Below, one piece after another: positions 35,724 to 64,000 of a stretch of DNA of 64,000 nt. How positions within the stretch are numbered: the first letter of the stretch is position 1; each line of letters starts with the position of its first letter. The stretch is from assembly GCF_036014215.1 (NCBI RefSeq), contig NZ_CP107921.1, positions 4,719,501 to 4,783,500 of the forward strand. Direction: 5' to 3'. A program made the position numbers and the translations under genes. A model generated the notes under the pieces. It was not told the origin of the DNA and did no database searches. It was given only the letters and a program-made list of their open reading frames with translations. The DNA is from Streptomyces sp. NBC_00440 (GTDB lineage: Bacteria > Actinomycetota > Actinomycetes > Streptomycetales > Streptomycetaceae).

Positions 35724-35752
35724 TTCCTGCCCGCGTTCGCAAGCATTAGCCT
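35724..35752 (+). promoter_or_regulatory. Possible eccC promoter
   Basis: TTCCTG (35724-35729) and TAGCCT (35747-35752) are spaced 17 nt; the start codon is at 35826 after GGGAGGAAG. No gene lies in the 331-bp kinase-eccC gap. Confidence 0.4.
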
Positions 35753-35825
35753 CAGTGAACCCATACGACAAGCGCGCCACCCAGGGCCGGCAGGCCACCG
35801 AGGACCGGCAGGGAGGAAGACGACC

Positions 35826-44428: not shown

Positions 44429-44571
44429 GGTTTCTCTCCCCCTCAGGACTCTGCTAGGTATGACGACGTGGTGCAGCCCGCATCCTGCAACTCAGATTAT
44501 CCCTGTAATCTATCGCCCGGCGCGACGCCTGATTGCGCCCGGTGCCTGTTCTTCGCCGACGATTCACTGCC

Positions 44572-45267
44572 CTATTTGTCGCCAACAAGGGCGAATGCGA
44601 AGGCCAGTCGACGGTCGATCCAGTCGGCCTTGATTGATACTTCGACGCTGCCCTCCGACATCATCACTACCTTTTCTTCCACGCGCCACTCAAGAGTTCG
44701 AGGCTTTGTCGGCTGATCTCCATTACCACCACCGAAGTCGGCCAGTCCGGCTACGAATCCAATGGTCATCCGCGCAGCGGCACGGCCGACTACCTCCTTC
44801 GTCGAGTCGCCACTGGCCCACTCATTGCGGCCCACGATTTCCGCGTGCCCCGGCTGGTCTATACGCCAGGTATGCCGGAAGGGACGCTTGGGAGGAATAC
44901 GGCGCAAGGTGCCGATGGTCAGCCCCTGTGCGTCGTGCACGAGGTGGTGGCGTTCACCGTCGACCTCCTCGGGCGGCTCCACGTAGCACAACAGGTTTTG
45001 ACACTCGGGGTCTTCGTACAGGGTGAGATCGTTGTGGGAGGGGCCGTCCACCGGTCGGGAGGCGGGAGCGAGGTATGCGCAAGGGGTGTTGACGCGGTAG
45101 TCCTTGCCTCCCTTGGGTACGCGCACCGCGCGTGGTCCGTACACCGCCTTCTTGCGTTTGATGGTCTCCGGTCGCTCTACGGTGCCGATGATGAACTTGT
45201 GGACGTTCACCCACTCAATGGGCTCCACCGCAGGCTCCTCGGCCTTTCTGCCCTTGCCGAATGCCAC
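44572..45267 (-). CDS. Cytosolic protein of the Tad-flanking paralogous module (left copy)
   Basis: A 231-residue protein, paralogous to the one at 57406. Both begin MAFG, and both have a VEPxxW motif followed by VERPETIKRKKAVYGPRAVRV (here) or its counterpart. A middle HTWRIDQPGHAEIVGRNEW and a C-terminal DWIDRRLAFAFAL also match the right copy's HTWWLRQPGHPDVVAR and WLDLRLVFALAV. No signal peptide; function unknown; the repeated strands suggest a beta-rich fold. GTG start with AGGAGGT upstream. A -10-like TAGGGT lies on the minus strand at 45307-45312. Confidence 0.85.
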   Translation of the reverse strand: MAFGKGRKAEEPAVEPIEWVNVHKFIIGTVERPETIKRKKAVYGPRAVRVPKGGKDYRVNTPCAYLAPASRPVDGPSHNDLTLYEDPECQNLLCYVEPPEEVDGERHHLVHDAQGLTIGTLRRIPPKRPFRHTWRIDQPGHAEIVGRNEWASGDSTKEVVGRAAARMTIGFVAGLADFGGGNGDQPTKPRTLEWRVEEKVVMMSEGSVEVSIKADWIDRRLAFAFALVGDK

Positions 45268-45320
45268 CGTTACCTCCTGGACCGAACTGACGGGCGAGAC
45301 GGTCCGACCCTAGCGGCACG

Positions 45321-45357
45321 GCCTTCCGCCGAGACGCGCGGCGAGTCGGCGGAAGGC
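45321..45357 (-). terminator. Hairpin between 45394 gene and 45267 gene
   Basis: GCCTTCCGCCGA (45321-45332) pairs with TCGGCGGAAGGC (45346-45357). It lies just downstream of the 45394 stop on the minus strand and upstream of the next gene's promoter. Confidence 0.7.
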
Positions 45358-45393
45358 GCAGTCGGCCGGACCGGTCTCTGCGTAGTTGCTGGC

Positions 45394-45954
45394 TCAGGAG
45401 TTGCCGCGCCCTGCCGTCCCGTTCGCGAGGGCTGTCAGGAAGGCAGTGCGGTTCCGGGTGGCGATCAGCAGCAACTCCCCCTGACAGGTGGAGATCGTCA
45501 CGCTGTCCATGCCCATCGGGACGGCCCAGCCGCCGCCGACGAGGCGGGGTCCGGTGCGCTCGGCTGCCCGCAGACCCGGCGCCGGGGCATCGATGGCGGC
45601 CGCTGAGGTTGCGTTGCGTTCCATCGGCGTCGATACGGCGCCCTGGAGCGCGGCCTGAACCGAGGCCGGGTCCACATCGGCGAGCGGAATGCGCTCGCGG
45701 CCGACCCGGAGGGTTTCCCCGTCGATTCGGATGCGCTGGTAGATGGCCTTGGAGATGGGTACGGCCAGACACGGGAGCAGCACAACGAGGAATAGCGCCG
45801 ACAGCCCCAGCCACAGGCCGATTTCATCCGGAATGGAACCCACGCCCATGTAGGTGATCCCGACCAGGTAGAGGGCAATACAGATGGCCGACCAGGTCTT
45901 GGGGGACTTTTCCAGATACATGATTTTCGGGTCTGCCTCAGTGGTTGACGACAT
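45394..45954 (-). CDS. Two-helix membrane protein, DUF3093/PH-like layout
   Basis: A 186-residue protein. Two transmembrane helices (about 19-37 and 47-67) precede a cytosolic beta domain that starts RIRIDGETLRVGRERIPLADVD and ends LLIATRNRTAFLTAL. That order (ExP-type N-terminus, two helices, then a PH-like sheet with a closing R/AFLxAL helix) resembles DUF3093 or bacterial PH proteins. Function unknown. The ATG at 45954 follows a TAGCGT-type -10 box on the minus strand (46025-46030). It sits in the left arm of the Tad-flanking module; a possible counterpart is 58242 on the right. Confidence 0.7.
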   Translation of the reverse strand: MSSTTEADPKIMYLEKSPKTWSAICIALYLVGITYMGVGSIPDEIGLWLGLSALFLVVLLPCLAVPISKAIYQRIRIDGETLRVGRERIPLADVDPASVQAALQGAVSTPMERNATSAAAIDAPAPGLRAAERTGPRLVGGGWAVPMGMDSVTISTCQGELLLIATRNRTAFLTALANGTAGRGNS

Positions 45955-46022
45955 CGGATTTCGCGGGGGGACGGCGGCCTGGCCCGGGCCCGGGAGTCCT
46001 GGAGCGCCGACTCCAGCCGTAC

Positions 46023-46032
46023 GACGCTATCC
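46023..46032 (-). promoter_or_regulatory. Shared -10 region GGATAGCGTC before the 45394 gene
   Basis: GGATAGCGTC (minus strand) also occurs at 47873-47882 before the lipoprotein gene; TAGCGTC recurs at the WXG100 gene (40733-40739). It contains a TANNNT -10 box. The remainder of 45955-46159 shows nothing else. Confidence 0.45.
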
Positions 46033-46159
46033 ACTGAGGCTCCCGGTTCGCCAGCGCGGGAGTGGACCGGCCGGCCGGATGCAGGCCTTGCACCTGGATC
46101 GTCGCCGCGCTCGCCCGCCGGGATCCCGGTGGAGCCGATTCGGGCGGACTGAGGGGCGG

Positions 46160-47182
46160 TCAGCGGTTGATGGCCTGGATCTCGTCCACCGTCACGTCCT
46201 GGGTGGTGCCGAAGGTGCCGGTGCCCAGGGAGTGCTGCCCGGGGTTTCCCGTACCTGTCCAGGAGATCTTCCAGGTGATGGTGGCGCGCAGCTTGAAGGG
46301 ACCGCTGTCACCGGAAGCCCGGAGATAGGTGATTCCGCACGGTGGTGTCTTGTCGGCGTCACCAGGCTTGTAGGCGGTGCCGATGGAGCCGTCGGCGTTG
46401 AAGGTGCATTCGCCTGAGGCCGGGTGGAGTTCGGAGTCGTCCGTGCCCGGCTCCAGCTTCAGCGAGACGGGTTTGGCGGTCGTGGTGGCCGACATACCGG
46501 GTATGTAAGCCGTGACGGAGACCGGTTTGAACTGTGTCTTGTCGAGCCAGGCCCACGTCGGAAGATTGACCTTGGTGGCGCCTGCGGGAGCCAGCGTCAC
46601 GTGTGTGTCCGGGACGGTGGTGTGCGCGGATGCGAGTTCGGCGAGCATTTTCGGGGTGACGGCGTCGGGCCGGTCCGCCGGCGGTGGCTTACCGGTGTCG
46701 ACCCAGAAATCCTTTCGGTCCTGGCAGGCGTCCCAGCCCGGTGGGTAGCTCTTGTCCACGTATGAAGTCCACCAGTAGCCCTTGCCCGCTTTGGCCTTGT
46801 TGAAGTCCTTGTATGGATGGCCGCCGGCGTAGTAGTCACGCTGGATTGCATCCCACTGATAGCCGGTCGACTCCTCGTTCCAGACATCCTCATTCTTTTT
46901 TTGGAACTCGGCAGGGGAATACGTAGGGGCAAACCAACAGGCTGGCGGTGACCAGTCGCCTGCGGAAGCCAGGTTACCCGGACCGCTGTTGGCGGGGGAG
47001 TACTGGACTCCGCGACTACCCCCGCCACTCTTGCCTGAGTCTCCCGCGTGTGCTTCGAGATCGGTGCCGGAAGCTCCGCCCCCCGTTTCAAAGTCTGCCT
47101 GAGCTGGGCCGGCGTTGAGGAACAGCAGGCCAAGGGCCGCTGTTGCCGCCAACGCGCCGTACGAGCCTTTCAAGGCTGGCAC
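46160..47182 (-). CDS. Secreted protein of the Tad-flanking paralogous module (left copy)
   Basis: A 340-residue exported protein. A signal peptide (ALKGSYGALAATAALGLLFL, cleavage near AQA) is followed by a Gly-rich linker. Conserved motifs are PPACWFAPTYSP, a Lys/Gly/Trp stretch (KAGKGYWW), VNLPTWAWLDKTQFKPVSV and PGTDDSELHP. Then come SGECTFNADGSIGT, TPPCGITYLRASG and the end DEIQAINR. Paralogous to 56342 and 63158. Four conserved cysteines suggest disulfides. Function unknown. GTG 47182 was chosen after GGGGAG. It overlaps the lipoprotein gene by 13 bp, exactly as the right copy does. Confidence 0.88.
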   Translation of the reverse strand: MPALKGSYGALAATAALGLLFLNAGPAQADFETGGGASGTDLEAHAGDSGKSGGGSRGVQYSPANSGPGNLASAGDWSPPACWFAPTYSPAEFQKKNEDVWNEESTGYQWDAIQRDYYAGGHPYKDFNKAKAGKGYWWTSYVDKSYPPGWDACQDRKDFWVDTGKPPPADRPDAVTPKMLAELASAHTTVPDTHVTLAPAGATKVNLPTWAWLDKTQFKPVSVTAYIPGMSATTTAKPVSLKLEPGTDDSELHPASGECTFNADGSIGTAYKPGDADKTPPCGITYLRASGDSGPFKLRATITWKISWTGTGNPGQHSLGTGTFGTTQDVTVDEIQAINR

Positions 47183-47832
47183 TTTGAACTCCCCCTGTCG
47201 GAGTTCAAAGCCGTGGTAACCCACACGCCTTTGTCGTTCTTGCGTAGCGCTGAATTGTAGAGGACGTAGCTGTTCTTCGTCACTGGCGTCTTGTTGATCT
47301 TGTTCGTCTGCAGGTGAAGGTCATACCCCTTTCCCTGATCCTGGCAGAAGGCGAACGTAGCCTTGTCGGGACCATTGAGTGAAATGACCGGGCCGTAGTA
47401 GCGAATGGTTCCTGTGATGCGCGATTTCGCTTTGACATACGCCGCGACGTATTCCTGAGTCGATGCGGTGAGTTCCCCTTCGGTGTAGAACCGGTAACCC
47501 GCCTGGAGTGGGTCCTGCTTGACGATTGCGTAGTCCCTCGCCTTGATGAGTTGCTCGGCGTCGGACATGACGGCGTCTTTCTCCTTGTCGCCAGTCTTGG
47601 GCCACTCGAAGACGTACTTGATGTCCGACGGCAGGCTGAACTTGGGTCGATCGACGTCAGCTGAGGCTGAGGCGGAAGCCGAGGGTGAAGCTGACTTCGA
47701 TGCCCCCTGGTCCGCCCCGGCGATCTTGCCCGAGTCCTTCGACTTGCTGTCACCGCCTCCGCCGCACGCGGTCAGAAGAAGTGCCGCTGCGGTCGCGAGT
47801 GCTGCGGCAGCGGGCAAGGATCGGCGGTTCAC
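47170..47832 (-). CDS. Lipoprotein of the Tad-flanking paralogous module (left copy)
   Basis: A 220-residue lipoprotein: signal VNRRSLPAAAALATAAALLL then TAC-GGGG, followed by a Ser/Ala linker. The folded part runs from FSLPSDIKYVFEWPKTGD to the end SDRGSSKCQP. It matches the lipoprotein at 55668 across its length: LPxDxKxVFE, then GDxxxDAVxxD. A Cys in FAFCQDQ pairs in position with VTYCADE, and NSYVLYNSALRKNDKGVWVTT matches DDYILYNTQLKKNTKGVWQTV. Function unknown. The GTG start follows GGGAG. A GGATAGCGTC box lies upstream on the minus strand (47873-47882). Confidence 0.88.
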   Translation of the reverse strand: MNRRSLPAAAALATAAALLLTACGGGGDSKSKDSGKIAGADQGASKSASPSASASASADVDRPKFSLPSDIKYVFEWPKTGDKEKDAVMSDAEQLIKARDYAIVKQDPLQAGYRFYTEGELTASTQEYVAAYVKAKSRITGTIRYYGPVISLNGPDKATFAFCQDQGKGYDLHLQTNKINKTPVTKNSYVLYNSALRKNDKGVWVTTALNSDRGSSKCQP

Positions 47833-47901
47833 TGGCGACTCCCGGTGGGGCGGTTGTGGACTGGAGGTAATTGACGCTATCCGGGCGGCACTTGGTTTCA
47901 C

Positions 47902-48799
47902 CAGGCTGAATTCGCCGCGCAGGGTGAGGCCCGGGTGACGATTGGGGTGAATGGTGCGTGCGCGGGCGCGTGGGGGCCGGTGTTCGGCGGCTGTTGCCTG
48001 GGGTTCCTGGGGGGATCCGGGAGATTGGGCGCTGTCGGCCGGGGCGAAGGTTCCGTCTTGATTACGCTTTGTTCACGCTTCACATATTGCTGGGCTACCG
48101 GGCGGCTGGGCACCCGAACCGCACCCCGCTGCCGTCATCGCGCAGCCCGCGGTTCGGGCTCCGCCCGGGCTCGGCCCGGGCCTGGACCGCCCCCGGCTCG
48201 GGCCGCATCGGACCTCGCTGCGTGCCCGATCGGACCTCGGTCCGCGCCCCGATCGTGCCAAGTCCCAGCCAGGTCCGCGCCGGGCCGACCCCAACCGCGT
48301 GCCGAGGTTCCTGCCGGGGCTCGTTGCCGGGGCTCGCGTCGGGGCCCGAGCCTGTGTTCTCGGTGCAGCCCCGCCCCTCCCTCCCTGGCCCCCAACTGCC
48401 CAGTTGTGACGGTGATGCGGACGCCATGGCCCTCAGGAATTTGCGTGTGCATCGCCAGTCCCCGGGTTGGCTGCGGGCTGGCGGGCCCCGATCGGCGGAT
48501 CTCCGTGAAGGGTTGGCGGATGCAACGGGCGATGCCCTGTCGTGCAGCGGGTACGGGGAAATCTCGTGAATCTTTGGGTGGCCCTCAAGGCTCGTCGATT
48601 CTGACCGGTTTGGACCGATCCTGGCGATGCGCGTGAAGTTCGCGATCCTTATCTCGTCTTGAGGCGCTTATGTGCTGCTGCTACGGTGCGATGACTTGAC
48701 AGCCTCCGGTGGCCTGGGAATCGGAACCGGATAAATGGCGGCGAAGTCGACTCGCTATATGTCGCAGAGAAACATTTCGGGGATTCGGGGAGAAGCGGC
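47902..48799. other. 898-bp low-complexity intergenic region before the Tad operon
   Basis: I see no supported gene. From about 48130 to 48380 the sequence is built from degenerate GC-rich repeats of GGCTCGG/CGGGGCTCG and GGACCTCG types, so open frames there are compositional. The left end carries the lipoprotein promoter. The right end is AT-richer (48690-48780) and ends in GGGGAGAAG before the CpaB start. Confidence 0.6.
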
Positions 48800-49537
48800 G
48801 TGAAGGTCCAGGAGCGCACGGGTGCAGGCAACCACAGGGTTCCCTCACCCGCCCAGTCGGCCGGTGAGCGGCTTCCCACCGTCGCCCGTGAACGCAAACC
48901 CGCCCTCGCCGCGCTCGCCGTCCTGCTGATCCTCGTCGGCGCGCTGGGAGCCACCGTGCTGGTGCTCCGGGCCGGCAACCGGGTCGAGGTCGCCAAACTG
49001 ACGCACAACGTCGAGGCGGGCCAGGCCATCACGAGTAGCGACGTCACGTCGGTGATGGTCGCCAACGACAACTCGATCAACTACATCAAGTGGGACCAGC
49101 TCGGCACCGTCGAGAAGACCCTCACCGCCAGGAGCGCCCTCTACTCCGGGTCCCTCCTGGTGGGCGAGATGTTCACCGGCGAAAAGGGCACCCCCGCGGG
49201 CAAGGCCGTCGTCGGACTCTCCCTCAAGGACGGCCAGTACCCCGTCGGGATCAAGGCCGGCGACACCGTCACCGTCTACCGGGTGGGCGACCGTAGCGGC
49301 TCCAGCAGCTCCAGCAGCAGCGGCAGCCAGTCCGGTTCGTCCAGCAACTCCGGGTCCTCCGGTGGCGGCATCATCGTGAACCGGGCCACCGTCAGCCAGG
49401 CCGACAAGCCCAACGACTCCACCATCAGCAGCGGCAATCTCGCGGTCACCCTCCTGGTCGACAACGCCGACGCCGCTGCCCTGTCGCAGGCCGCATCCGC
49501 AGGGGAAGCAGCCGTGGTCACGGTTGCTTCCCACTAA
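48800..49537 (+). CDS. cpaB: Tad pilus assembly protein CpaB/RcpC (SAF domain)
   Basis: A 245-residue protein with one N-terminal transmembrane helix (about 38-56, ALAALAVLLILVGALGATVL). A SAF-type beta-clip domain follows, with NVEAGQAITSSDVTS and SALYSGSLLVGEM. The C-terminal RcpC-like part is interrupted by a ~35-residue Ser/Gly/Gln run (about 168-190). CpaB proteins sit outside the membrane in the pilus assembly. GTG start with GGGGAGAAG. It opens the Tad operon, 45 bp before the CpaE-like gene. Confidence 0.87.
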   Translation: MKVQERTGAGNHRVPSPAQSAGERLPTVARERKPALAALAVLLILVGALGATVLVLRAGNRVEVAKLTHNVEAGQAITSSDVTSVMVANDNSINYIKWDQLGTVEKTLTARSALYSGSLLVGEMFTGEKGTPAGKAVVGLSLKDGQYPVGIKAGDTVTVYRVGDRSGSSSSSSSGSQSGSSSNSGSSGGGIIVNRATVSQADKPNDSTISSGNLAVTLLVDNADAAALSQAASAGEAAVVTVASH

Positions 49538-49582
49538 CGGCTGACCGACGCCCCCAGAGGAACCCAGAGGAACGCAGAAGAC

Positions 49583-50410
49583 ATGGCGCTCATCGCCCTC
49601 GCCGCAGACAAGGGTTCGCCCGGAGTCACCACGGCCGCCCTCGCCCTCGCCGCCGTCTGGCCCCGGCGGGCGCTGCTCGCCGAAGCCGACCCGGCCGGCG
49701 GGGACCTCGTCTACCGCACCACCGCCTCCAACGGCGGCCCGCTCAACCCGAACACCGGCCTGCTCTCCATCGCCGCCGCAGCCCGCCGCGGGCTCGCCGC
49801 CGACCAGCTGTGGGACCACGCCCAGCCCATGGCCGGCGGCCTGGAGCTGCTCGTCGGGATCGGCTCCGCCGAGCAGGCCGCAGGCCTCGCCGGTGTCTGG
49901 CCCACCCTCGGGCACGCCTTCTCCACCCTCGGCGACTCACCGCACGCGCCCGCCGACGTGATCGCCGACATCGGCCGGATCGCCGGGGGTTCGCCCGCGC
50001 TCGACCTGCTGCCGCAGGCCGGCCTCGTGCTGCTCGTCGCCCGTACGGAACCGGAGCACATCGCCCGCGTACGGGACCGGGCCGCCGCCCTCGCCGCCCA
50101 GCTGCACGGCGGACAGCGCGGAATGTCGCAGCTGGCCACTCCGCTCATCGGCGTCCTGCTGGTCGTCGAGTCGAGCGCGTCCGCCAAGGTCGCCCACCAG
50201 GTCAACGACATGCTCGTCGCCGCCCAGACCGGCGCCCGGGTCATCGGCACACTCGCGCACGACACCTCCGGCGCCGCGCTGCTCTCCGGGCGCGGCCGCG
50301 GCCGGCTCGACAAGTCGCTGCTGATCCGCAGCGCCCGCAAGGTCGCCGCCGACGTCTACCAGCAGTTCGGCGCCGCCTGGTCACAGCCGGGCGCCGGGGC
50401 CGCTCGATGA
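49583..50410 (+). CDS. cpaE: CpaE-like MinD/ParA-family protein with degenerate P-loop
   Basis: A 275-residue MinD/ParA-like protein. The N-terminal deviant Walker A site is ADKGSPGVTTAALALA. The signature Lys of the family is present, but the P-loop Lys (in KGGxGKT) is replaced by Val. Switch-like segments follow (LLAEADPAGGDL, VLLVARTEPEHIARVRDRA). In Tad systems CpaE helps place the pilus machine at a pole. With this P-loop, ATP hydrolysis is doubtful. ATGA overlap with the CpaF gene. Confidence 0.82.
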   Translation: MALIALAADKGSPGVTTAALALAAVWPRRALLAEADPAGGDLVYRTTASNGGPLNPNTGLLSIAAAARRGLAADQLWDHAQPMAGGLELLVGIGSAEQAAGLAGVWPTLGHAFSTLGDSPHAPADVIADIGRIAGGSPALDLLPQAGLVLLVARTEPEHIARVRDRAAALAAQLHGGQRGMSQLATPLIGVLLVVESSASAKVAHQVNDMLVAAQTGARVIGTLAHDTSGAALLSGRGRGRLDKSLLIRSARKVAADVYQQFGAAWSQPGAGAAR

Positions 50411-51717
50411 GCGACGTCGTCGACCACAGCCTGGTCAAGCGGTACCGGCAGGAGGCCGGCGACCGGATCGCGGAACAGCGCCGTATCGACCAGGTCAGCA
50501 ACACGCCGCCGATGTCCGGGGAGGACGAGCGGCAGTACGCGCGCGCCGTCATCGCCCAGATACTTGAGGAGTACGCGCGCGCGGAGATCAACGCCGGGCG
50601 TACCCCTTTCGACGCGGAGACCGAGGAGCAGTACGCGGCGGCCGTGCACGCGGCGCTCTTCGGAGTCGGGCGCCTCCAGCCGCTGCTTGACGACCCCGAG
50701 GTCGAGAACATCGACATCAACGGCTGCGACCAGGTCTTCGTCGGTTACGCCGACGGGCGCGAGGCCCGCGTCGACCCGGTGGCCGACACCGACGAGGAAC
50801 TCGTCGAACTCATCCAGGTGCTCGGCGCCTACTCGGGACTCTCGTCCCGCCCCTTCGACTCCGCCAACCCCCAGCTCGACCTGCGGCTCCCCGACGGCTC
50901 CCGGCTCTCGGCCGTGATGGAGGTCGCCCGCAGGCCCGCGCTCTCCATCCGTCGCGCCCGGATGGGCAAGGTCTTCATGGCGGACCTCGTCGGCAACGGC
51001 ACGCTCACCCCCGAGCTGGCCCACTTCCTCGCCTGCGCGGTCCGCGCCCGTAAGAACATCATGATCGCGGGCGCCACCAACGCCGGCAAGACCACGCTCC
51101 TGCGGGCCCTCGCCAACGAGATCCCGCCGGTCGAGCGGCTCGTCACGGTGGAGCGCGCGCTGGAGCTCGGGCTCGACCAGTTCCCCGAACTCCACCCCAA
51201 CGTCGTGGCGTTCGAGGAACGGTTGCCCAACTCCGAAGGGCTCGGCCAGATCTCGATGGGCGAGCTGGTGCGCCGTTCGCTCCGTATGAACCCCTCGCGC
51301 GTCATCGTCGGTGAGGTGCTCGGCGACGAGATCGTGACCATGCTCAACGCGATGTCGCAGGGCAACGACGGCTCGCTCTCCACGATCCACGCCAACAGTT
51401 CGAGCGAAGTCTTCAACCGTATTTCCACCTACGCGCTCCAGGCCAACGAGCGGCTGCCCATCGAGGCCAGCCAGATGCTCATCGCCGGAGCCGTCAACTT
51501 CGTCGTCTTCGTGCAGCGCCGCAACAACTTCGAGAGCGGCGGCCGCCTCCAGCGTGCCGTCACCTCGGTCCGTGAGGTCAACGGCGTCGACGGCCGCGTC
51601 CTCTCCAGTGAGGTCTTCGCCGAGACGCCCGACGGGCGTGTCCTGCCGCACGCCCCGGTGGCGTGCCTCGACGACCTCGCCGTACACGGCTATCGCCCCT
51701 CAGGGGCCTGGGGGTGA
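50407..51717 (+). CDS. cpaF: Tad pilus secretion ATPase CpaF/TadA
   Basis: A 436-residue type II/IV secretion ATPase. The N-terminal helical domain (to about 140) is followed by GRxxSRPFDSANPQLDLRLPDGS-type elements. Walker A is GATNAGKTT (about 221-229), the Asp box reads TVERALELGL, and Walker B has RVIVGEVLG. A His box STIHANSS follows. It drives pilin polymerisation from the cytoplasmic face. The start overlaps the CpaE stop by 4 bp. TadB follows after 10 bp with GAAGGAG. Confidence 0.94.
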   Translation: MSDVVDHSLVKRYRQEAGDRIAEQRRIDQVSNTPPMSGEDERQYARAVIAQILEEYARAEINAGRTPFDAETEEQYAAAVHAALFGVGRLQPLLDDPEVENIDINGCDQVFVGYADGREARVDPVADTDEELVELIQVLGAYSGLSSRPFDSANPQLDLRLPDGSRLSAVMEVARRPALSIRRARMGKVFMADLVGNGTLTPELAHFLACAVRARKNIMIAGATNAGKTTLLRALANEIPPVERLVTVERALELGLDQFPELHPNVVAFEERLPNSEGLGQISMGELVRRSLRMNPSRVIVGEVLGDEIVTMLNAMSQGNDGSLSTIHANSSSEVFNRISTYALQANERLPIEASQMLIAGAVNFVVFVQRRNNFESGGRLQRAVTSVREVNGVDGRVLSSEVFAETPDGRVLPHAPVACLDDLAVHGYRPSGAWG

Positions 51718-51727
51718 AGGAGACCGT

Positions 51728-52867
51728 ATGAATGGAATCTCCTCGTTGGGCGGGTTCTTCGATCCGCAGCTGCTGCTCGGACTCGGGTGCGGCGTCGCGG
51801 CGGGTGGCGGTCTCGCGCTGCTGATCGTCGCGATCCGTGGTGTCGAGCCCAAGCCCGGCCATGTGAAGGCCGAGCGCGGCGAACGGGCCAGGGAACTGGT
51901 CCAGTTCATCGGGCGGCGCGGCTCCATCGCCGTCGGCGTCGGACTCGTCGTCCTGCTGCTGACCCGCTGGACCGTTGCCGGAGTCGCCGCCGGGCTGCTC
52001 GTCTTCTTCTGGGACCGCCTCTTCGGCGGCGCCGCCCAGGAGAAGATCGCCATGCGCCGGGTGGAGGCCCTCGCGGGCTGGACCGAGTCGCTCCGTGACA
52101 CCATCGCGGGCGCCGTCGGCCTCGAACAGGCCATCCCGGCCTCCGCACGCGCCGCCGCCCCCGCCCTGCGCCCGCACCTGGACGCGCTGGTCGACCGGCT
52201 CCGCGCCCGGATGCCGCTGCCGGAGGCCCTCCAGTACCTCGCCGACGAGATCAACGACGCGTCCGCCGACATCATCGTGGCCGCGCTCATCCTCAACGCC
52301 AAGCTGCGCGGACCCGGTCTGCGCCAGGTGCTCGGCGCGCTCTCCAAGTCGGCGCGCGAGGAGATCGACATGCGGCACCGGGTGATGGCACAGCGCTCGT
52401 CGACCCGGCGCAGCGTGCAGATCGTGGTCGTGGTCTCGGTGGCGTTCGTACTCGGACTCGCCGTGTTCAACCGGAGCTTCGTTTCCCCGTACGGTTCACC
52501 GATGGGCCAGCTGGTGCTGGCCGGGGTGTGCGGTCTGTTCGCGCTCGGCTTCTGGTGGCTGCGCAAGCTGTCGGTGATCGAGACGCCGGAGCGCTTCCTG
52601 ATCCGCGCCGAACCCGAGGTCCGGTTCGTACGGCCCGACGCGTCCCAGCACGGGTCCCAGCAGCAGGGCGGGCAGCAGGCTCCTGTCGGGCACCAGGCTC
52701 CTGTCGGGCACCAGGCTCCGGGCGGGCAGCCTGCTCCCGGTGGCCAGCAGGCTCCCGGTGGGCAGTACTCCGGTGGCCAGTATCCCGGCGGGGCGAATCC
52801 GGGCGGACAGCAGCAGACTCCTCCGCAGGCCTCGCCGTTCAACCATGGCCAGGGGGCGCCGCGATGA
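51728..52867 (+). CDS. tadB: Tad inner-membrane protein TadB with repeat tail
   Basis: A 379-residue TadB-like platform protein. The N-terminal helix (about 15-36), a pair at about 61-85 and two C-terminal helices (about 230-250 and 262-280) surround a type II secretion F domain. That domain contains LEQAIPASARAAAPALRPHL, RMPLPEALQYLADEINDAS and KLRGPGLRQVLGALS. The tail after residue ~300 is a Gln/Gly/Pro repeat (QAPVGHQAPVGH, QAPGGQPAPGGQ), unusual for TadB. ATGA overlap with tadC. Confidence 0.9.
   Translation: MNGISSLGGFFDPQLLLGLGCGVAAGGGLALLIVAIRGVEPKPGHVKAERGERARELVQFIGRRGSIAVGVGLVVLLLTRWTVAGVAAGLLVFFWDRLFGGAAQEKIAMRRVEALAGWTESLRDTIAGAVGLEQAIPASARAAAPALRPHLDALVDRLRARMPLPEALQYLADEINDASADIIVAALILNAKLRGPGLRQVLGALSKSAREEIDMRHRVMAQRSSTRRSVQIVVVVSVAFVLGLAVFNRSFVSPYGSPMGQLVLAGVCGLFALGFWWLRKLSVIETPERFLIRAEPEVRFVRPDASQHGSQQQGGQQAPVGHQAPVGHQAPGGQPAPGGQQAPGGQYSGGQYPGGANPGGQQQTPPQASPFNHGQGAPR
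52675..52790 (+). repeat. Coding tandem repeat in the TadB tail
   Basis: CAGGCTCCTGTCGGGCAC (18 bp) occurs twice exactly, then drifts (CAGGCTCCGGGCGGG, CAGGCTCCCGGTGGG), encoding QAPVGH/QAPGGQ hexapeptides. Copy number probably varies among strains. Confidence 0.85.
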
Positions 52868-53793
52868 TCGACATTCTCACCGCACCGGTACTGATCGGGG
52901 CCGTACTGGGCCTCGGTGTCTTCGTCCTCGTACGGGCCCTGTCGCGTACGAGGCGCTCCGCGGTCTCGCAGGTGCAGCGCATCGACGCGCTGCGGGCGGC
53001 CGGTTCCGGGTACGAGCGGCCGGGCGACCACGATTCCCACGACGGGCGGCTCGGCTCGCTGCGTGCGCGGGTGGGGGTGCGGATCGCCGACCTCTACTTC
53101 CAGCAGGGCTGGGAGCAGCGCTCGCTCCGCTCCGACCTGGCGGTCCTCGACCGCGGCTGGGAAGGGTTCCTGGCGACCAAGGTGCTGCTCGGCGTGGTCG
53201 GCCTGATCTTCGGCCCGATGCTCTTCGCCATCGCCGTGCTGATCGGCTTCGGCAAGAGCCCGATCATCCCGGTCTGGCTCGCACTGGTCTGCGGGCTGCT
53301 CTTCTTCTTCCTGCCGGACCTCGAAGTACGCCGGGACGCGACGGACAAGCGCAAGGACCTGCGCCGCGTCATCGGTGCGTATCTGGACCTGGTCTCGATG
53401 AACCTGGCCGGCGGGCGCGGTCTGCCCGAGGCGCTGATGGCCGCCGCCGAGGTGAGCGAAGGCTGGGCACTGCGCCGGATCCGCAACGCGCTCGCGGACG
53501 CCCGGATCACCGGTACCAGCCAGTGGCTCGCGCTCGGCAGGCTCGGCGAGGATCTGGGTATCGAGGAACTGAAGGACTTGTCGTCGTCGCTGGCGCTCGT
53601 CGCCGACGACGGGGCGAAGGTACGTGAGTCGCTGGCCTCCAGGGCCGAGACGATGCGGCACCGCGAAATGGCCGAGATCGAGGGAGCGGCTGGTGAGAAG
53701 TCGCAGTCGATGCTTGTCGCCCAGCTGCTTCTCTGCGCCGGGTTCCTGGTCTTCCTCATCTATCCGGCCGCGATGCGCGTCTTCCAGGTCTGA
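52864..53793 (+). CDS. tadC: Tad inner-membrane protein TadC
   Basis: A 309-residue protein with helices at about 5-25, 105-125 and 130-155 and at the C-terminus (AQLLLCAGFLVFLIYPAAM). The F domain includes DLVSMNLAGGRGLPEALMAAA and ITGTSQWLALGRLGEDLGIEE. It is the second platform protein of the Tad machine and overlaps tadB by 4 bp. The C-terminal LVFLIYPAAMRVFQV ending is typical of TadC. Confidence 0.92.
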   Translation: MIDILTAPVLIGAVLGLGVFVLVRALSRTRRSAVSQVQRIDALRAAGSGYERPGDHDSHDGRLGSLRARVGVRIADLYFQQGWEQRSLRSDLAVLDRGWEGFLATKVLLGVVGLIFGPMLFAIAVLIGFGKSPIIPVWLALVCGLLFFFLPDLEVRRDATDKRKDLRRVIGAYLDLVSMNLAGGRGLPEALMAAAEVSEGWALRRIRNALADARITGTSQWLALGRLGEDLGIEELKDLSSSLALVADDGAKVRESLASRAETMRHREMAEIEGAAGEKSQSMLVAQLLLCAGFLVFLIYPAAMRVFQV

Positions 53794-53828
53794 TCCCGCT
53801 TCCCCTTCTCTTGAGAGGATTTCATCCC

Positions 53829-54074
53829 ATGTTCGGACGCCGCTTCAGTCACCCGACTGTCGACTTCCTGATCACGTTCCTGCAGGCACGCGTCGAGCGT
53901 GCCCGCTCCGAAGACACCGACCGCGGCGCGTCAGCCGTGGAGTGGGTCATCATCTCGGCGGTCGTCGTGGCGATCGTCGGTGTGGTCGCCGCGATCATCA
54001 ACTCCGCGCTGAGTGACGGCGCCAACAAGGTCGGCAACTGCATCAAGGGAGCCAGCGCGAGCGGCACCTGCTGA
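53829..54074 (+). CDS. Flp-family type IVb pilin
   Basis: An 81-residue pilin. A basic leader (~38 residues, long for Flp) precedes the prepilin peptidase site RG|ASAVEW with the obligatory Glu at +5. The hydrophobic helix VIISAVVVAIVGVVAAIIN and a short tail with Cys residues follow (NCIKGASASGTC). It is the probable major subunit of the pilus. ATG 53829 follows GAGAGG. Hairpins with UUCG/UUCC loops lie just after the stop. Confidence 0.88.
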   Translation: MFGRRFSHPTVDFLITFLQARVERARSEDTDRGASAVEWVIISAVVVAIVGVVAAIINSALSDGANKVGNCIKGASASGTC

Positions 54075-54080
54075 GCCGGG

Positions 54081-54113
54081 CCCTTCGGGACCTTCCGGGA
54101 CCCTTCCGGGTCC
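54081..54113 (+). terminator. UUCG/UUCC hairpins after the pilin gene
   Basis: CCC-UUCG-GGG (54081-54090) and GGACCC-TTCC-GGGTCC (54098-54113) are stable small hairpins between pilin and pseudopilin genes. They may end part of the transcripts or protect pilin mRNA, so that pilin exceeds the minor subunits. Confidence 0.55.
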
Positions 54114-54154
54114 ACTGTTCATTTACGAGTCCGATCGATCGAGTCACTGAGTCG

Positions 54155-54601
54155 GTGCTGGTGCGTCAGAGGATCAGAGCGTTCGTACGCCGCAGGGTGG
54201 AGGCAGCCTCCGCCCGCGGTGACTCCGGCATGACCGCGATCGAGTTCGTCTTCCTGACGCCGGTCCTGTTCTTCATGATCTTCGCGACGGTGCAGTTCGC
54301 GCTGTACTTCTTCGCCGACCACGTGGCGCAGGCCGCCGCGCAGGCCGGTGCGCGCAAGGCACGGGCCGAGGCGGACGCGAACCCCGGGGGCTGGCGCGGG
54401 GACGCGGGCGACGTCGTACAGAGCTACATCCAGCAACTTGGCTCGAAGCTGGTGCTGGGCCCGAACGTGACGATGCTCCAGCCGGACAAGGACACGGTCG
54501 GCGTGGAGATCACCGCACGGGTCCCGAATGTCTTCCCCGGCCTGGGCCTCACGGTGCACGCGCAGTCGCGGGGGCCCGTCGAACGGTTCGTGCGGGACTG
54601 A
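54155..54601 (+). CDS. TadE-like pseudopilin
   Basis: A 148-residue minor pilin-like protein. The prepilin site is DSG|MTAIEFVFLTP (Glu +5), followed by a hydrophobic helix (FVFLTPVLFFMIFATVQFAL) and a soluble domain from about residue 60. The start is set at GTG 54155; no convincing ribosome site precedes it, and an internal start is possible. The TGA overlaps the next ATG (TGATG), so the two are coupled. Confidence 0.82.
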   Translation: MLVRQRIRAFVRRRVEAASARGDSGMTAIEFVFLTPVLFFMIFATVQFALYFFADHVAQAAAQAGARKARAEADANPGGWRGDAGDVVQSYIQQLGSKLVLGPNVTMLQPDKDTVGVEITARVPNVFPGLGLTVHAQSRGPVERFVRD

Positions 54602-55119
54602 TGAGAGGCCAACGGGTGGCGGGGCGGCAGGTGTTCGCGGGTGTATGTGCCCGTGCGGGTGTGGCGAGTGTGGATACGGGTGTGAGGTGCGCGTCGCGTG
54701 CCGTACGGATGCGGCTGGACCGCGCGGGAGTCGGGGCCGACCGCGGTCTGTCGACCATCGAAGTGGTCATCCTGGCCCCCATCATGATCCTTTTCATTCT
54801 GGTGCTGGTCGGCTTCGGGCAGCTGGTCGAGGGGCGCGGCGCCGTGGACAGCGCGGCGCGGGACGCCGCCCGTGCGGGTTCGATCCAGAAGGACGACGGC
54901 GTCGCGATGTCCGAGGCGCGCAGGGCCGCCGACGCGGATCTGACCGACGTCTGTTCCGGCCCGGTGTCCGTCACGGCCAAGGGGTTCGTCAAGGGCGGCT
55001 TCTTCACCGTCGACGTGAGCTGCCAGATCCGTGGCCTCGCCATGCTCGGCCTGAACATCCCCACCACCCTGAGCGGGCACTTCACCTCGCCGATCGACCC
55101 GTACCGGAGGACGCAGTGA
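54601..55119 (+). CDS. TadE/TadF-like pseudopilin
   Basis: A 172-residue protein with prepilin site DRG|LSTIEVVILAP, helix VVILAPIMILFILVLVGFG, and a domain ending SPIDPYRRTQ with two Cys (VCSGP, SCQIR). The first 36 residues before RMRLDRAG are Arg/Gly/Ala-rich; ATG 54709 is an alternative start that would give a leader like its neighbours. The first ATG is kept because it overlaps the previous stop. GTGA overlap with the next gene. Confidence 0.8.
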   Translation: MRGQRVAGRQVFAGVCARAGVASVDTGVRCASRAVRMRLDRAGVGADRGLSTIEVVILAPIMILFILVLVGFGQLVEGRGAVDSAARDAARAGSIQKDDGVAMSEARRAADADLTDVCSGPVSVTAKGFVKGGFFTVDVSCQIRGLAMLGLNIPTTLSGHFTSPIDPYRRTQ

Positions 55120-55574
55120 ACGCGCTCACCGGATGGATCGAGTCCCGCCGGGCCCAGCTGGACGACCGGGGGTCGGGCGCCGCGGCGGTCATCATCTTCG
55201 CGTTCGTGTTCCTGGCCCTGGCCGCGTTCGTGGTGGACGGCGGGCTGTCGATCTCGCAGCGGGAACGTGCCGCGGACATCGCGGAGCAGGCCGCACGGTA
55301 CGCGGCACAGGACATAGACCGGGAGGCCCTGTACGACAACCAGGGCGGACCCGCGCCGATCAACTACCAGAACTGCAACGCGCGCGTGCACGCCTTCGCG
55401 GTCGAGATGGGGATGTCCGGGCAGGACATCGGTGCTTCGCACTGCACGGCGGCCAACGCACAACGGGTCGAGGTGACAGTGCAGTTGACGTACCAGCCGG
55501 TGCTGACGGGCCTGTTCTACAGCCACTCGATAACCGTGCATGGTTCTTCGGTCGCCGAGTCCGTGACGGGCTGA
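55116..55574 (+). CDS. TadG-like (TadE-related) pilus protein
   Basis: A 152-residue protein. Its N-terminus DDRGSGAAAVIIFAFVFLAL contains an imperfect prepilin-like site without Glu at +5, followed by a transmembrane helix. The extracytoplasmic part begins DGGLSISQRERAADIAEQAARYAAQ, the region found at the start of TadG-like proteins. It is much shorter than full TadG and lacks a von Willebrand A domain. GTG start overlaps the previous stop and has CGGAGG. Last gene of the Tad operon. Confidence 0.8.
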   Translation: MNALTGWIESRRAQLDDRGSGAAAVIIFAFVFLALAAFVVDGGLSISQRERAADIAEQAARYAAQDIDREALYDNQGGPAPINYQNCNARVHAFAVEMGMSGQDIGASHCTAANAQRVEVTVQLTYQPVLTGLFYSHSITVHGSSVAESVTG

Positions 55575-55667
55575 TGGCGATCCGTTCGCTGGGGTATCCC
55601 CGGGCAGGCAGAGCAGCATGTGCGCGCGGCTGCGGGCCCCGTTTCAGATGGAAAGGCACACACCCTC

Positions 55668-56354
55668 ATGCATGACACATTCCCCTCACGTCCCGTGCGC
55701 CGGGGGGCCGGCGCGGCGTCGCTGGTGGTCGCGGCGGCACTGCTGCTGTCGGCGTGCGGCGGTGGTGACTCGGCGTCCTCCAACAAGGCGGACAAGGTGC
55801 CGGGAGCGGACACCGGTACGAAGACGGCGGCGCCTTCCGCTTCGGCTTCTGCGGACGGGATCGAGCGGCCGGACATCACCTTGCCCAAGGACGTAAAGAA
55901 CGTCTTCGAGGGCTGGCAGACCGGCGACCCTCAGCAAGACGCTGTGTTGGCGGACAGCCGCAGGCACATCAACGCCATCGACGCTGCCGTCACCGAGGGG
56001 ACTCCCCAGACGAAGAAGTTCCCCGCTGTCGACTTTTATACGAAGGACGCGGCGTTGCTGGACGCATACCAGTACATCGCCTCGTTCTACAAGGCAGGGC
56101 AGAGCTTCTCGGGGACGGCCCGCTATTACAACCAGCACGTCAAGCTCCAGAACACTGGTGCGGCATCCGTGACGTACTGCGCCGATGAAACCACGGCGTA
56201 CACGAAGGACCGTAAAACCGGCAAGGTGGAGAAAGGCACGCCTTCGTCCGACGACTACATCCTCTACAACACGCAGCTCAAGAAGAACACCAAGGGCGTA
56301 TGGCAGACGGTTGTGATCACATCTGACGGGGGAGCGAAGGCGTGCCAGCGTTGA
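55668..56354 (+). CDS. Lipoprotein of the Tad-flanking paralogous module (right copy)
   Basis: A 228-residue lipoprotein with signal RRGAGAASLVVAAALLLSAC, a Ser/Ala/Thr linker and a domain from ITLPKDVKNVFEGWQTGD to GGAKACQR. It is paralogous to 47170 throughout; the shared YxLYNxxLxKNxKGVW block near the C-terminus is the clearest. Function unknown; membrane-anchored on the outside. ATG 55668 after GGAAAGG was chosen over 55620, whose extra residues would disrupt the signal. The 3' end overlaps the secreted-protein gene by 13 bp. It starts 94 bp after the last Tad gene and may be co-transcribed. Confidence 0.88.
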   Translation: MHDTFPSRPVRRGAGAASLVVAAALLLSACGGGDSASSNKADKVPGADTGTKTAAPSASASADGIERPDITLPKDVKNVFEGWQTGDPQQDAVLADSRRHINAIDAAVTEGTPQTKKFPAVDFYTKDAALLDAYQYIASFYKAGQSFSGTARYYNQHVKLQNTGAASVTYCADETTAYTKDRKTGKVEKGTPSSDDYILYNTQLKKNTKGVWQTVVITSDGGAKACQR

Positions 56355-57373
56355 ATAGGACGGCTGGTCGTGTTCTCGCACTTGGCGCAGTATTGGTATC
56401 GGTCTCGGCTCTGGCATCACCTGCTTATGCGGGCAACAGGCATGACACTGCCCAACAGGGGAGCGCCAAGGGCGGGTCGGGCAACGGGAAAATTACCGTC
56501 CAGACTCGTATCCGGACGACCACCAACGGCGACCCCGGATCGGCGAAGACCGGCTCGCTGTCTCCTGCGGACAGCAACTGGACACCCCCCGCTTGCTGGT
56601 ATGAACCGGCCTTCTCGCCCAAGGAGATTCAGGCCAGCGTCAAAGAGTGGCGGGCCGTCGGGATCTTCGGGATCGGCGATGTGATCGGCAATGTACTCGA
56701 CAGCTATTACAAGGACGGCAAGTACAAGAACTACAACCTTGACCAGCAGGGCAAGGGAAAGTTCTGGGCAGCTGTCGTAAACCCCAAGCGCAAGGACGAA
56801 CCGGGCGCGACGGCCTGCGACAGGATGCCGTTCTGGGTGCCGAACAACACCACCCCGCACGAGCCCCTCGCCGTGAGCCCGAAGATCCTCGCCGAGTACG
56901 CGTACGACGAACTCCCCGTCCCCGAAACGCAGATCGAGGCAGCCCCGGCGGGCAAGTCCACAGTCAACCTGCCCACCTGGGTCTGGCTGGACAAGGCCCG
57001 CTTCAAGCCGGTCTCGGTGACCGCCTCGCTGCCCGGCACGGGACTCTCCGCGACGACGACCGCCACGCCCGTCGCCCTCCACCTGGACCCCGGTACGGAC
57101 GACGCGGAGGTCTATCCGGCGAGCGGCGACTGCCCGCTCAACGCGGACAAGTCGATCGGCACCCCGTACACCAAGGGCTCCGCCGACCGGACCCCGTCCT
57201 GCGGCGTGACGTACGAGCGCTCGTCCGGCGGGGGCACGTATCCGCTGCGGGCGACGCTCACCTGGGAGATCAACTGGACCAGCACCACGGGCGAGGGCGA
57301 CAGCCTGCCCAACGGAACCTACGGGGACACGAAGGACGTCGCCGTTCAGGAGATCCAGTCGGTCAACCGCTGA
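56342..57373 (+). CDS. Secreted protein of the Tad-flanking paralogous module (right copy)
   Basis: A 343-residue exported protein with signal peptide (VLALGAVLVSVSALASPAYA, cleavage after AYA). Conserved motifs are PPACWYEPAFSP, GKGKFWAAVV, VNLPTWVWLDKARFKPVSV, PGTDDAEVYP, SGDCPLNADKSIGT and TPSCGVTYERSSG. LRATLTWEINW and the end QEIQSVNR follow. It shares all of these with 46160 and 63158. The middle domain (about 200-260) and the closing beta segments suggest an all-beta body. GTG start inside the lipoprotein gene. Function unknown; no enzymatic motif found. Confidence 0.88.
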   Translation: MPALNRTAGRVLALGAVLVSVSALASPAYAGNRHDTAQQGSAKGGSGNGKITVQTRIRTTTNGDPGSAKTGSLSPADSNWTPPACWYEPAFSPKEIQASVKEWRAVGIFGIGDVIGNVLDSYYKDGKYKNYNLDQQGKGKFWAAVVNPKRKDEPGATACDRMPFWVPNNTTPHEPLAVSPKILAEYAYDELPVPETQIEAAPAGKSTVNLPTWVWLDKARFKPVSVTASLPGTGLSATTTATPVALHLDPGTDDAEVYPASGDCPLNADKSIGTPYTKGSADRTPSCGVTYERSSGGGTYPLRATLTWEINWTSTTGEGDSLPNGTYGDTKDVAVQEIQSVNR

Positions 57374-57405
57374 ACGCCCGCGCCACCTGAGGAGAGAAGC
57401 GAACG

Positions 57406-58125
57406 ATGGCATTCGGAAGACAGCGGCGTGCCCCGGAGCCGCCGGTCGAGCCGATGCCCTGGGAGGGCATCTCCTGGTTCGTGGTCAGCGAGGTGGAGCA
57501 GCCGGCCACGTTCCGCCGTAAAGCGGTGACCGGACCGCGGGCGATACGTGTGCGGTCGGTCGGCGGGCCCGTACGGTGTTTCGCGCCCGCCGTGTTTGTC
57601 GTACAGCCCGACCCGGAGATCAAGGCGTACGAGTTCTACGCGGCCCGGGATCCCCGTCAACAGATCTGTGCGCTCGCGCCCGTGACCGGCGGGAAGGGTG
57701 GCGAGCAGTACCGGGTCGCGGACGGAGCGGGGCAGGAGATCGGCGCCGCGCACCGGACCGTCGCCGCGAAACGCACGATCCAGCACACCTGGTGGCTCCG
57801 GCAGCCCGGTCACCCGGACGTCGTGGCCCGCTACCACTGGGCCAAGGGCAGTGCCAAGGAGGTCGCGGCGCGGGGCAAGGCGGCTGTGGCGCGGCAGGCG
57901 GGGAGCCTGGCCGAAAGCGTCGTGGATTCCTTGATCTTCGGTGGTGACGACAGCGGCGGCCAAAGCAGCAACCACATCCGCAAGCCGGTGACCTGGCGGG
58001 CGGGCGAGGACGAAGTGGCCCTCACGTCCGATCACACGGACCGCGGGGTCAGGACCTATATGCCGAAGGCCGGTTGGCTGGACCTGCGGCTGGTGTTCGC
58101 GCTGGCGGTACTGCGGGAGGGCTGA
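57406..58125 (+). CDS. Cytosolic protein of the Tad-flanking paralogous module (right copy)
   Basis: A 239-residue soluble protein, paralogous to 44572: shared MAFG start, VEPMPW, TFRRKAVTGPRAIRVR and HTWWLRQPGHPDVVAR. WLDLRLVFALAVLREG at the end also matches. No signal peptide and no known domain. It follows the secreted-protein gene by 32 bp with GAGGAGAG as ribosome site, giving the operon lipoprotein - secreted - cytosolic. The hairpin after it ends the unit. Confidence 0.85.
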   Translation: MAFGRQRRAPEPPVEPMPWEGISWFVVSEVEQPATFRRKAVTGPRAIRVRSVGGPVRCFAPAVFVVQPDPEIKAYEFYAARDPRQQICALAPVTGGKGGEQYRVADGAGQEIGAAHRTVAAKRTIQHTWWLRQPGHPDVVARYHWAKGSAKEVAARGKAAVARQAGSLAESVVDSLIFGGDDSGGQSSNHIRKPVTWRAGEDEVALTSDHTDRGVRTYMPKAGWLDLRLVFALAVLREG

Positions 58126-61627: not shown

Positions 61628-61912
61628 CTAACTCGCGCCGTGCATCTTCCTGTCCTGGGCGGACTGTTTTTTCTGGGCTTCATCCACCAGCCGGTTCTCC
61701 TCTGCCGGGAACGAATCGAAGAGGGTCTTCAGCCGCTTCATGCGCCCTTCGTGATCGGTACGCCATGTGTCGGCCTTCTTGCCGATCCAGGTATGCGGCA
61801 TCATGGCGTCGACGCGTTTCATGGCCGCTTTTATGTCCGTCACCGCCCTCTCGATCTCATTCATGTCCTGCCGGCACACGTAGTCGAGACGGTCCTGCTC
61901 GGGAATGCCCAT
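61628..61912 (-). CDS. WXG100-family protein
   Basis: A 94-residue protein with turn W42-I-G44 in MPHTWIGKKADTWRTDHEGR, two charged helices and a Gln/Lys-rich tail. ATG 61912 with AAAGGAG upstream. It stands alone, divergent to nothing, and could be a type VII substrate or partner of the gene set to its left. Codon use is less GC3-biased than usual for Streptomyces. Confidence 0.88.
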   Translation of the reverse strand: MGIPEQDRLDYVCRQDMNEIERAVTDIKAAMKRVDAMMPHTWIGKKADTWRTDHEGRMKRLKTLFDSFPAEENRLVDEAQKKQSAQDRKMHGAS

Positions 61913-63157: not shown

Positions 63158-64000
63158 TCAGCGGTTGATCGTCTGGATTTCCTGGACGTTCATGTCCTGG
63201 GTGGTCTGGAAGGTTCCGTCGGGGAGGTCGCCATGTGCTCCGCCTGTGCCCCTCCAGCTGATCTTCCAGGTGATGGACGCCTTGAGCTGGTACGGGCTTC
63301 CGTCGGTGGCGTGCAGGTAGTTGATGCCGCACGGCGGGTTCTGGCTGGCGTCGCCTGCCTTGTACGGCGTGCCGATGGAGCCGTCCTTGTTGAACGTGCA
63401 GGTGCCGGAGGAGGGGAAGGTGTCCGCGTCGTCCGTGCCCGGGTCCAGGTGGAGGCTCACGGGTTTCGCGGTGGTCTCGGCCCAGAGCCCGGTGTTGGGG
63501 AGTTCGGCGCGTACGACGACGTCCTTGAAGGTGCCCTTGTCCAGCCAGACCCAGGTGGGCAGGTTCACGGTGGACTTGGTCTGCGGCTTCAGCTCGATCT
63601 TGGTCTCGGGGACCTTGACCTTGTTGTACGCGTACTCGGCGAGCATCTTCGGCGTGGGCGCGTGCGGGATCTTCGGGACCTGGCCGGCCGGCTGCCAGAA
63701 CATGATGCGGCCGCACTGCCATGAATCGGGATCCGACTCGTCCGGCGCTACGCTCCGCCAGAAGTAGCCGCCCTTGCCGATGTTGTAGTTCTTGTAGCCA
63801 TCGGCCATGGAGCTGGGGTCGTCGAAGTTGGCTTCGGGCTTGCCGTCCTTGTAGTGGTCGGTCCAGAGGCCAGTGCCGAACCAGGACTCGTGGATACCCA
63901 CATCGCCGTCGCCGCCGGACGACTTCACGAAACTCTTCAAGCCTTCGGGTGTGAAGACGGGCTCGTACCAGCAAGCGGGCGGTTTCCAGTTGGGATCGAT
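63158..64000 (-). CDS. Secreted protein of the Tad-flanking paralogous family (third copy, 5' end outside window)
   Basis: The reading frame stays open to the right edge, so only the C-terminal 280 residues are visible (stop at 63158-63160). Shared family motifs are PPACWYEPVFTP at the edge and GKGGYFWRSV. Others are VNLPTWVWLDKGTFKDVVV, PGTDDADTFP, SGTCTFNKDGSIGT, NPPCGINYLHATDG, and the end QEIQTINR. The missing N-terminus should contain the signal peptide. No module lipoprotein is visible here; a propeller lipoprotein lies downstream instead. Confidence 0.88.
   Translation of the reverse strand: MDPNWKPPACWYEPVFTPEGLKSFVKSSGGDGDVGIHESWFGTGLWTDHYKDGKPEANFDDPSSMADGYKNYNIGKGGYFWRSVAPDESDPDSWQCGRIMFWQPAGQVPKIPHAPTPKMLAEYAYNKVKVPETKIELKPQTKSTVNLPTWVWLDKGTFKDVVVRAELPNTGLWAETTAKPVSLHLDPGTDDADTFPSSGTCTFNKDGSIGTPYKAGDASQNPPCGINYLHATDGSPYQLKASITWKISWRGTGGAHGDLPDGTFQTTQDMNVQEIQTINR

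Follow-up and report, generated by a model that had tools for sequence, protein, structure and literature searches.

Two groups of described Tad machines come closest to the locus studied here. In the diderm Cpa system of Caulobacter, which includes CpaB, CpaI, CpaC and CpaD, CpaB is described as an alignment cage that is bridged to the secretin by CpaI, a wall-associated β-sandwich protein (PMC13170226, passages on these proteins). For monoderms, the section cited here of a 2019 review of monoderm pili presents minimal Tad machines, for which RcpB, RcpC and TadD are listed as missing (PMC6916266). The cited part of Denise et al. states that many actinobacterial systems are still "generic", and that the secretin would have been lost as Tad adapted to monoderms (PMC6668835). 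We ask how, in the absence of a secretin, a Tad pilus gets through a thick monoderm wall. We analysed a stretch of 64,000 nucleotides of Streptomyces sp. NBC_00440 (the window; C1:4719501-4783500 of an 8.68-Mb genome in two contigs), in which a Tad pilus locus is flanked on both sides by a gene pair encoding a lipoprotein and a secreted protein, and offer these two gene families for testing that question.

In the related genomes surveyed, the pair occurs only with one Tad system, and its relatives adjoin the pilus genes on most of the plasmids opened. The two proteins therefore probably belong to the machinery that takes the pilus across the thick wall, and have so far been overlooked. A Tad-linked extracytoplasmic pair is well supported, and from it we infer a role in wall crossing. 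We give about an even chance to the fuller reading, in which the pair would form an extracytoplasmic accessory complex, or parts, of the actinobacterial Tad (type IVc) machine and work with CpaB where the wall is crossed.

Like the Cpa system as set out in the cited text (PMC13170226), the locus encodes an ATPase, two platform proteins, and TadZ/CpaE-like, TadE/F/G-like and putative Flp-like and CpaB-like proteins, and it shares core pilins, platform proteins and ATPase with the machines of Bifidobacterium breve and Micrococcus luteus (PMC6916266, same section). Unlike in the latter two, a CpaB/RcpC-like gene is kept here and the lipoprotein-secreted pair is added, together with a LysM protein on nine plasmids. 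In contrast to Cpa, the pair, whether in its near or its distant form, has no Pfam family over cut-off (NCBIfam gave below-cut-off matches only), and the lipoprotein is NTF2-like by model. The secreted protein can be likened to CpaI from the text description only, as a wall-side β-sandwich protein beside CpaB (PMC13170226). By description, a similar likeness exists in the rpl locus of Rhodococcus equi, where a "putative lipoprotein" gene, rplD, is lettered directly before the CpaB gene rplE; the passage cited gives nine genes and names no second secreted protein (PMC2947987). Cutibacterium acnes tad plasmids likewise combine an actinobacterial plasmid with a tad locus, and a signal-peptide protein of this species, APS60_12625, likened here by description, was recovered together with TadE2 from sheared surface fractions according to the cited part of that study (PMC5696575). 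Among the matches listed by a literature search that covered few subscription papers, none dealt with a Tad locus of Streptomyces or described this pair.

On the left of the Tad locus, on the minus strand, the pair consists of lipoL (47170..47832), encoding an NTF2-like lipoprotein with the lipobox LLLTAC, and secL (46160..47182), encoding a protein with a signal peptide and a C-terminal PKD-like domain, both assigned by prediction. The right-hand paralogues, lipoR (55668..56354; lipobox LLLSAC; NTF2-like by model and fold matches) and secR (56342..57373; secreted and PKD-like by prediction), lie on the plus strand, as does the Tad operon, and lipoR starts 93 bp past the end of tadG. Pairwise comparison gave 45% identity between secL and secR (E 2e-85) and 35% between lipoL and lipoR (E 1e-40), and 34% (E 1e-36) between two genes of a cytosolic family that lie further out on each side. 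The paralogy of three families across the arms, read from the open reading frames (ORFs) in an earlier note on this DNA, is thereby borne out; all its ORFs are present at its coordinates, and the secreted gene does begin 13 bp inside the lipoprotein gene in both arms (47170-47182 and 56342-56354), with GTG as the start codon of secL and secR. The left arm has a lower G+C content (0.634 in window 44001-48000, vs about 0.70 in the Tad operon), and only a minority of its ORFs pass a simple codon-position score; both features hint that its history is a different one.

The pair is strongly tied to Tad within the genus. Of 61 genomes, the same 15, without exception, gave strong matches to the secreted proteins (>285 bits), to the lipoproteins (≥90 bits) and to the Tad ATPase orthologue (>780 bits, with 83-100% identity). 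The ATPase orthologue is set apart by a clear gap, scoring at least 782 bits vs 366 for the next best protein, and weaker Tad-type ATPase paralogues are present in 61/61 genomes. With these cut-offs applied to 256 genomes, which include the 61, the secreted family was detected in 66, the ATPase orthologue in the same 66, and neither in the other 190; the 195 new genomes alone gave 51 and the same 51. Short partial matches to the secreted family were treated as fragments (for instance in G023 at 7.38 Mb, with a stop, in G024 on C60 and C126, in G027 at 577 kb and in G014 on C270), and lipoprotein matches below about 90 bits, of which 50/61 genomes have some at E≤0.001, were set aside as mostly short N-terminal ones. 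The earlier note would have taken families found mainly without Tad genes as a refutation: the secreted family accompanied the Tad orthologue in 66/66 genomes and was found in 0/190 without it, and the lipoprotein family followed in the same 15/61. As a positive control of the profile searches, prepilin peptidase (PF01478) was uninformative, being present in 59/61 genomes.

On an rpoB-rpoC tree of 60 genomes (G001, with a partial rpoB match, was left out), the trait of having Tad and the pair was scattered, with 9 changes and 8 independent contrasts on supported branches; shared ancestry therefore does not explain the co-occurrence. The pair might instead lack any functional link and simply hitch-hike with the Tad locus in transfers. 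Such hitch-hiking would fit the patchy distribution of the locus and the presence of at least one secreted copy ≤15 kb from tadA in 22/28 genomes. However, the nearest listed copy lay 138-1772 kb from tadA in the other 6, the 66 = 66 match is exact even with genomes whose listed copies are far from Tad, and the pair also accompanies divergent Tad loci on plasmids, so that we consider this explanation already disfavoured and very unlikely. These distances cover the 28 genomes for which both genes could be placed on a single large contig, among which G088, whose copies were not listed, does not figure, and refer to the nearest of the copies listed, 8 candidates having been scored per genome; G093, G105 and G184 have further copies.

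Distant relatives of the pair showed a similar linkage. Among the 61 genomes, weak matches to the C-terminal half of the secreted protein fell at 16 places. At 15 of them, a divergent Tad ATPase gene (37-49% identity) follows on the same strand, 2.1-2.6 kb further downstream; G029 is the exception. The second contig of the genome studied here carries one such homologue, and a divergent Tad ATPase follows it at 2.5 kb. Profile comparison confirmed that the near and distant secreted families are homologous (99.5%, E 4.7e-23), and that a small lipoprotein gene, found directly upstream of the distant secreted gene in 10/10 examined, is homologous to lipoL/lipoR (97.6%, E 4.6e-12). The paralogy thus did not disappear in profile comparison, as the earlier note had allowed it might; distant homologues of two of the families came to light in addition. 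The distant operons run lipoprotein, secreted protein, cpaB, tadZ, tadA, tadB, tadC, (flp), tadE, tadF, tadG, and overall the distant pair forms the head (before cpaB) or the tail (after tadG) of Tad operons.

A search of the phylum returned a match in 25/198 genomes, 20 of them outside the genus (23 places). Twenty of these places, in 17 genomes, were opened (G386, G387 and G428 were left out), and Tad genes lay beside the secreted match at 6. The lipoprotein profile matched directly upstream at 9 of the 20, and a similar small anchored protein was recognized by eye at 7 (L204, L207, L215-L217, L219 and L220); three others are cut by contig ends (L208, L211 and L213) and one has no lipoprotein partner (L209). 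The profile was built from 12 loci that were later searched and match by construction; the independent matches include L030, L061, L205, L206, L212, L214, L218, L241-L248 and L250, with L240 matched via the near-type profile. Presence of a Tad ATPase in the distant genomes with the secreted family was uninformative, as 16/16 have one. Of 15 Tad loci mapped in 13 distant genomes, four contain a CpaB-type operon without the pair (L225, L229, L235 and L238). These come from four genomes of one family that carry the pair elsewhere, much as in Streptomyces chromosomes; cpaB was undetected in the other 11 loci.

Relatives of the pair also occur on plasmids. Out of 72,556 plasmid records, 201 match, 150 of them from Streptomyces. 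Fourteen records were sampled at even steps and nine opened (H66, H68, H70, H72 and H74 were left out), and Tad genes adjoin the pair on 8 of the 9, the exception being L247, where the pair is apparently broken. The small upstream gene was found on 9/9, on eight by profile and on L249 by eye. Three further, chosen plasmids all carry the pair in a Tad operon. One is a relative almost identical to the second contig of the genome studied here; another is Kitasatospora NBC_00374, in which tadG is followed, as on the right of the window's Tad locus, by near-type genes for the lipoprotein (2e-32) and the secreted protein (7e-60); the third is Arthrobacter pAL1. On 9/12 plasmids (L239, L242-L246 and L248-L250), the annotation gives a LysM protein downstream of tadG, mostly of about 1,100-1,300 amino acids, with a short piece in L248; no LysM gene was noted in the window's own, chromosomal Tad operon. 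Plasmid records often label the distant secreted protein "ATP/GTP-binding protein", and one says "PKD domain-containing protein". As a signal peptide and a β-sandwich C-terminus are apparent, the former label is unsupported, and this widespread annotation is corrected here.

The plasmids also bear on whether the pair belongs to type VII (ESX) secretion genes near the Tad locus rather than to Tad itself. In the window, an EccC-like FtsK/SpoIIIE ATPase (35721-40322) and a weak EspG match (41573-42406) are present on the left, and a weak WXG100 match (59776-61011) and a small ORF (61628-61912) on the right. EccC-like genes were also found in the Tad stretches L050, L052, L053 and L054, so the Tad locus recurs beside ESX. 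However, the plasmid copies reside in Tad operons, and no ESX-annotated gene was present in the plasmid regions opened, which makes an ESX origin of the pair highly improbable.

Both proteins are predicted to act outside the membrane. The model of mature lipoR is NTF2-like, with a curved sheet and packed helices, both in the model and in its fold matches, and the lipoprotein is accordingly predicted to expose an NTF2-like domain on the outer face of the membrane. VirB8/TcpC of type IV secretion resembles it in fold only; other NTF2-like proteins score higher, and here the protein has a lipid anchor. The secreted protein is predicted to end in a PKD-like β-sandwich; no Pfam PKD match was found in secL, secR or four distant relatives, and Foldseek alone gave no clear match for its model. 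Conservation rises along the secreted protein: the mean share of the commonest residue is 0.48 over mature residues 1-45, 0.68 over 46-150 and 0.83 over 151-313.

The genome contains further pairs. A third secreted-protein gene, sec3, is cut by the window end (63158..64000, minus strand; the whole gene spans window 63158-64210, or L007:1158-2210), and its lipoprotein gene lies outside the window (L007:2207-about 2857). Two more pairs are present at C1:5.99 Mb and 2.97 Mb. Directly downstream of sec3, a lipoprotein gene (61990-63051, minus strand) gives a weak β-propeller (NHL) match; its 97% relative in L122 is located about 3.3 kb downstream of a secreted gene. In a protein tree, built by a quick method and with one long branch (G037), secL, secR and sec3 fall into three separate subfamilies with relatives in other genomes. 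Specifically, secR groups with copies after tadG in G009, L144 and L179, and with a G031 copy divergent from cpaB; sec3 groups with a widespread copy, and secL with its G023 counterpart. It follows from this grouping that the arms did not arise by inverted duplication in place, and a mirror duplication was rejected. Judged by this tree, the arms appear to be two old subfamilies that happen to flank Tad. Hence, while the paralogy and overlaps described earlier hold, the mirrored module proposed to flank the Tad locus does not, given the third pair at the window end, the two further genomic pairs and the separate subfamilies.

Multiple copies raise the main rival, namely that the secreted protein is a pilus adhesin, or a tip or coat subunit, with the NTF2-like lipoprotein as its membrane chaperone, and that the diverged copies confer different binding specificities. 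Surface proteins commonly contain PKD-like domains. That a genome can hold several copies, assigned to separate subfamilies, would be in keeping with this rival, as would an N-terminal part more variable than the C-terminal domain, like a variable head on a conserved docking domain. However, the distant Tad operons opened place the secreted gene directly before cpaB or after tadG, as if it were a fixed member, and Pfam detected no known binding domain, sortase signals not having been searched for. We regard an adhesin as possible but rather doubtful.

The two families are nearly always paired, as a lipoprotein match lies upstream of the secreted gene in 78/79 named loci. The spacing in these 78 pairs is -4 in 44, +2 in 10, -1 in 8, -13 in 7 and other values in 9, counted from the start codon nearest the lipoprotein stop, which favours short spacings. 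In several loci (L140, L143, L144, L160, L165, L168 and L176), unpartnered extra lipoprotein matches and partial secreted-gene matches adjoin intact pairs, as if these loci were expanding and decaying. Paired, often overlapping genes with such leftover copies are also what would be expected if the secreted protein were a toxin, exported by the Tad machine or along with it, and the lipoprotein protected the producer. A Tad-like apparatus has been reported to kill prey in predatory bacteria (PMC8460266, in the part cited), so a killing apparatus of this kind exists. Yet the C-terminal domain is the most conserved part of the secreted protein, leaving no variable toxin end, and the distant pairs are ordinary Tad operon members. 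An effector-immunity system is thus very improbable.

The cytosolic family behaves differently from the pair. Its two genes in the window (44572-45267, minus strand, and 57406-58125, plus strand) are mutual paralogues, and the left one is separated from secL by a membrane-protein gene (45394-45954) with a weak DUF3093 match below cut-off. No Pfam or NCBIfam family match over cut-off was found for the cytosolic family. Strong copies occur in 7/61 genomes, 3 with this Tad system and 4 without (p 0.35), and weak partial matches in four more, and on this basis the family was rejected as a third module member tied to Tad. It is nonetheless a recurrent Tad neighbour: the gene directly follows tadG in L123, L127 and L135. 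The earlier proposal of an extracellular assembly linked to the Tad pilus consequently stands for the lipoprotein and secreted families and falls for the cytosolic family.

The Tad locus itself, between the two arms, is recognizable from Pfam matches over cut-off to T2SSE (one), T2SSF (two), TadE (two) and Tad (one). All of its genes are on the plus strand. The first is a cpaB/rcpC-like gene (48800..49537), which occupies the same place in other Tad loci and matches RcpC/CpaB (PF16976) weakly, at 15.9 bits, below the cut-off of 28.8. It is followed by a tadZ-like gene without a Pfam match (49583..50410), named from its position and from homology between Tad loci; tadA (50407..51717; PF00437, E 8.5e-29), the ATPase gene used as query in the co-occurrence survey; and the platform protein genes tadB (51728..52867; PF00482, E 5.3e-10) and tadC (52864..53793; PF00482, E 1.6e-9). 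A putative Flp-type prepilin (53811..54074), with unrelated Pfam matches below cut-off only, is assigned from its ORF, its position and a Flp-like stretch containing GASAVEWVIISA, which we take to be the Flp cleavage motif. The minor pilins are encoded by tadE (54155..54601; PF07811, E 8.3e-13), a tadF/tadE-like gene (54601..55119; PF07811, E 1.8e-9) and a tadG-like gene (55116..55574; PF13400, E 5.4e-8). Two prepilin peptidase genes (PF01478, over cut-off) are present in the genome (G000), neither near the Tad locus. A simple promoter/terminator scan was uninformative, with 7 terminator-like sites vs 6.8 expected, none of them between tadG and lipoR.

Taken together, a wall-side role for the pair is the most likely, because its genes are coupled, its products are predicted to lie outside the membrane, it accompanies Tad even where unlinked, and it stands beside cpaB in distant operons; the analogy with CpaI points the same way. 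The lipoprotein and the secreted protein, as neighbours of CpaB, would form the wall-side part of a machine that, in a monoderm, can be expected to have neither the outer-membrane secretin nor the pilotin of diderm machines. The lipoprotein could hold or load the secreted β-sandwich protein, which in turn may brace or guide the pilus at its exit from the membrane and through the peptidoglycan. The pair would thereby do in monoderms what is done for CpaB by CpaI and the secretin side in diderm Tad machines. On the chromosomes of Streptomyces, it may have been freed from fixed operon positions and multiplied into subfamilies, maybe for different conditions or cell types. More broadly, and with somewhat less than an even chance of being right, we propose that a large class of monoderm, actinobacterial Tad machines has an envelope module of its own, in which the NTF2-like lipoprotein and the PKD-like secreted protein, joined on plasmids by a LysM protein, work with CpaB, replace the secretin side and bring the pilus across the thick wall, and which in Streptomyces has become a set of multiplied, exchangeable modules. 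If this is true, the view of monoderm Tad machines as simply stripped-down versions would be wrong for this class.

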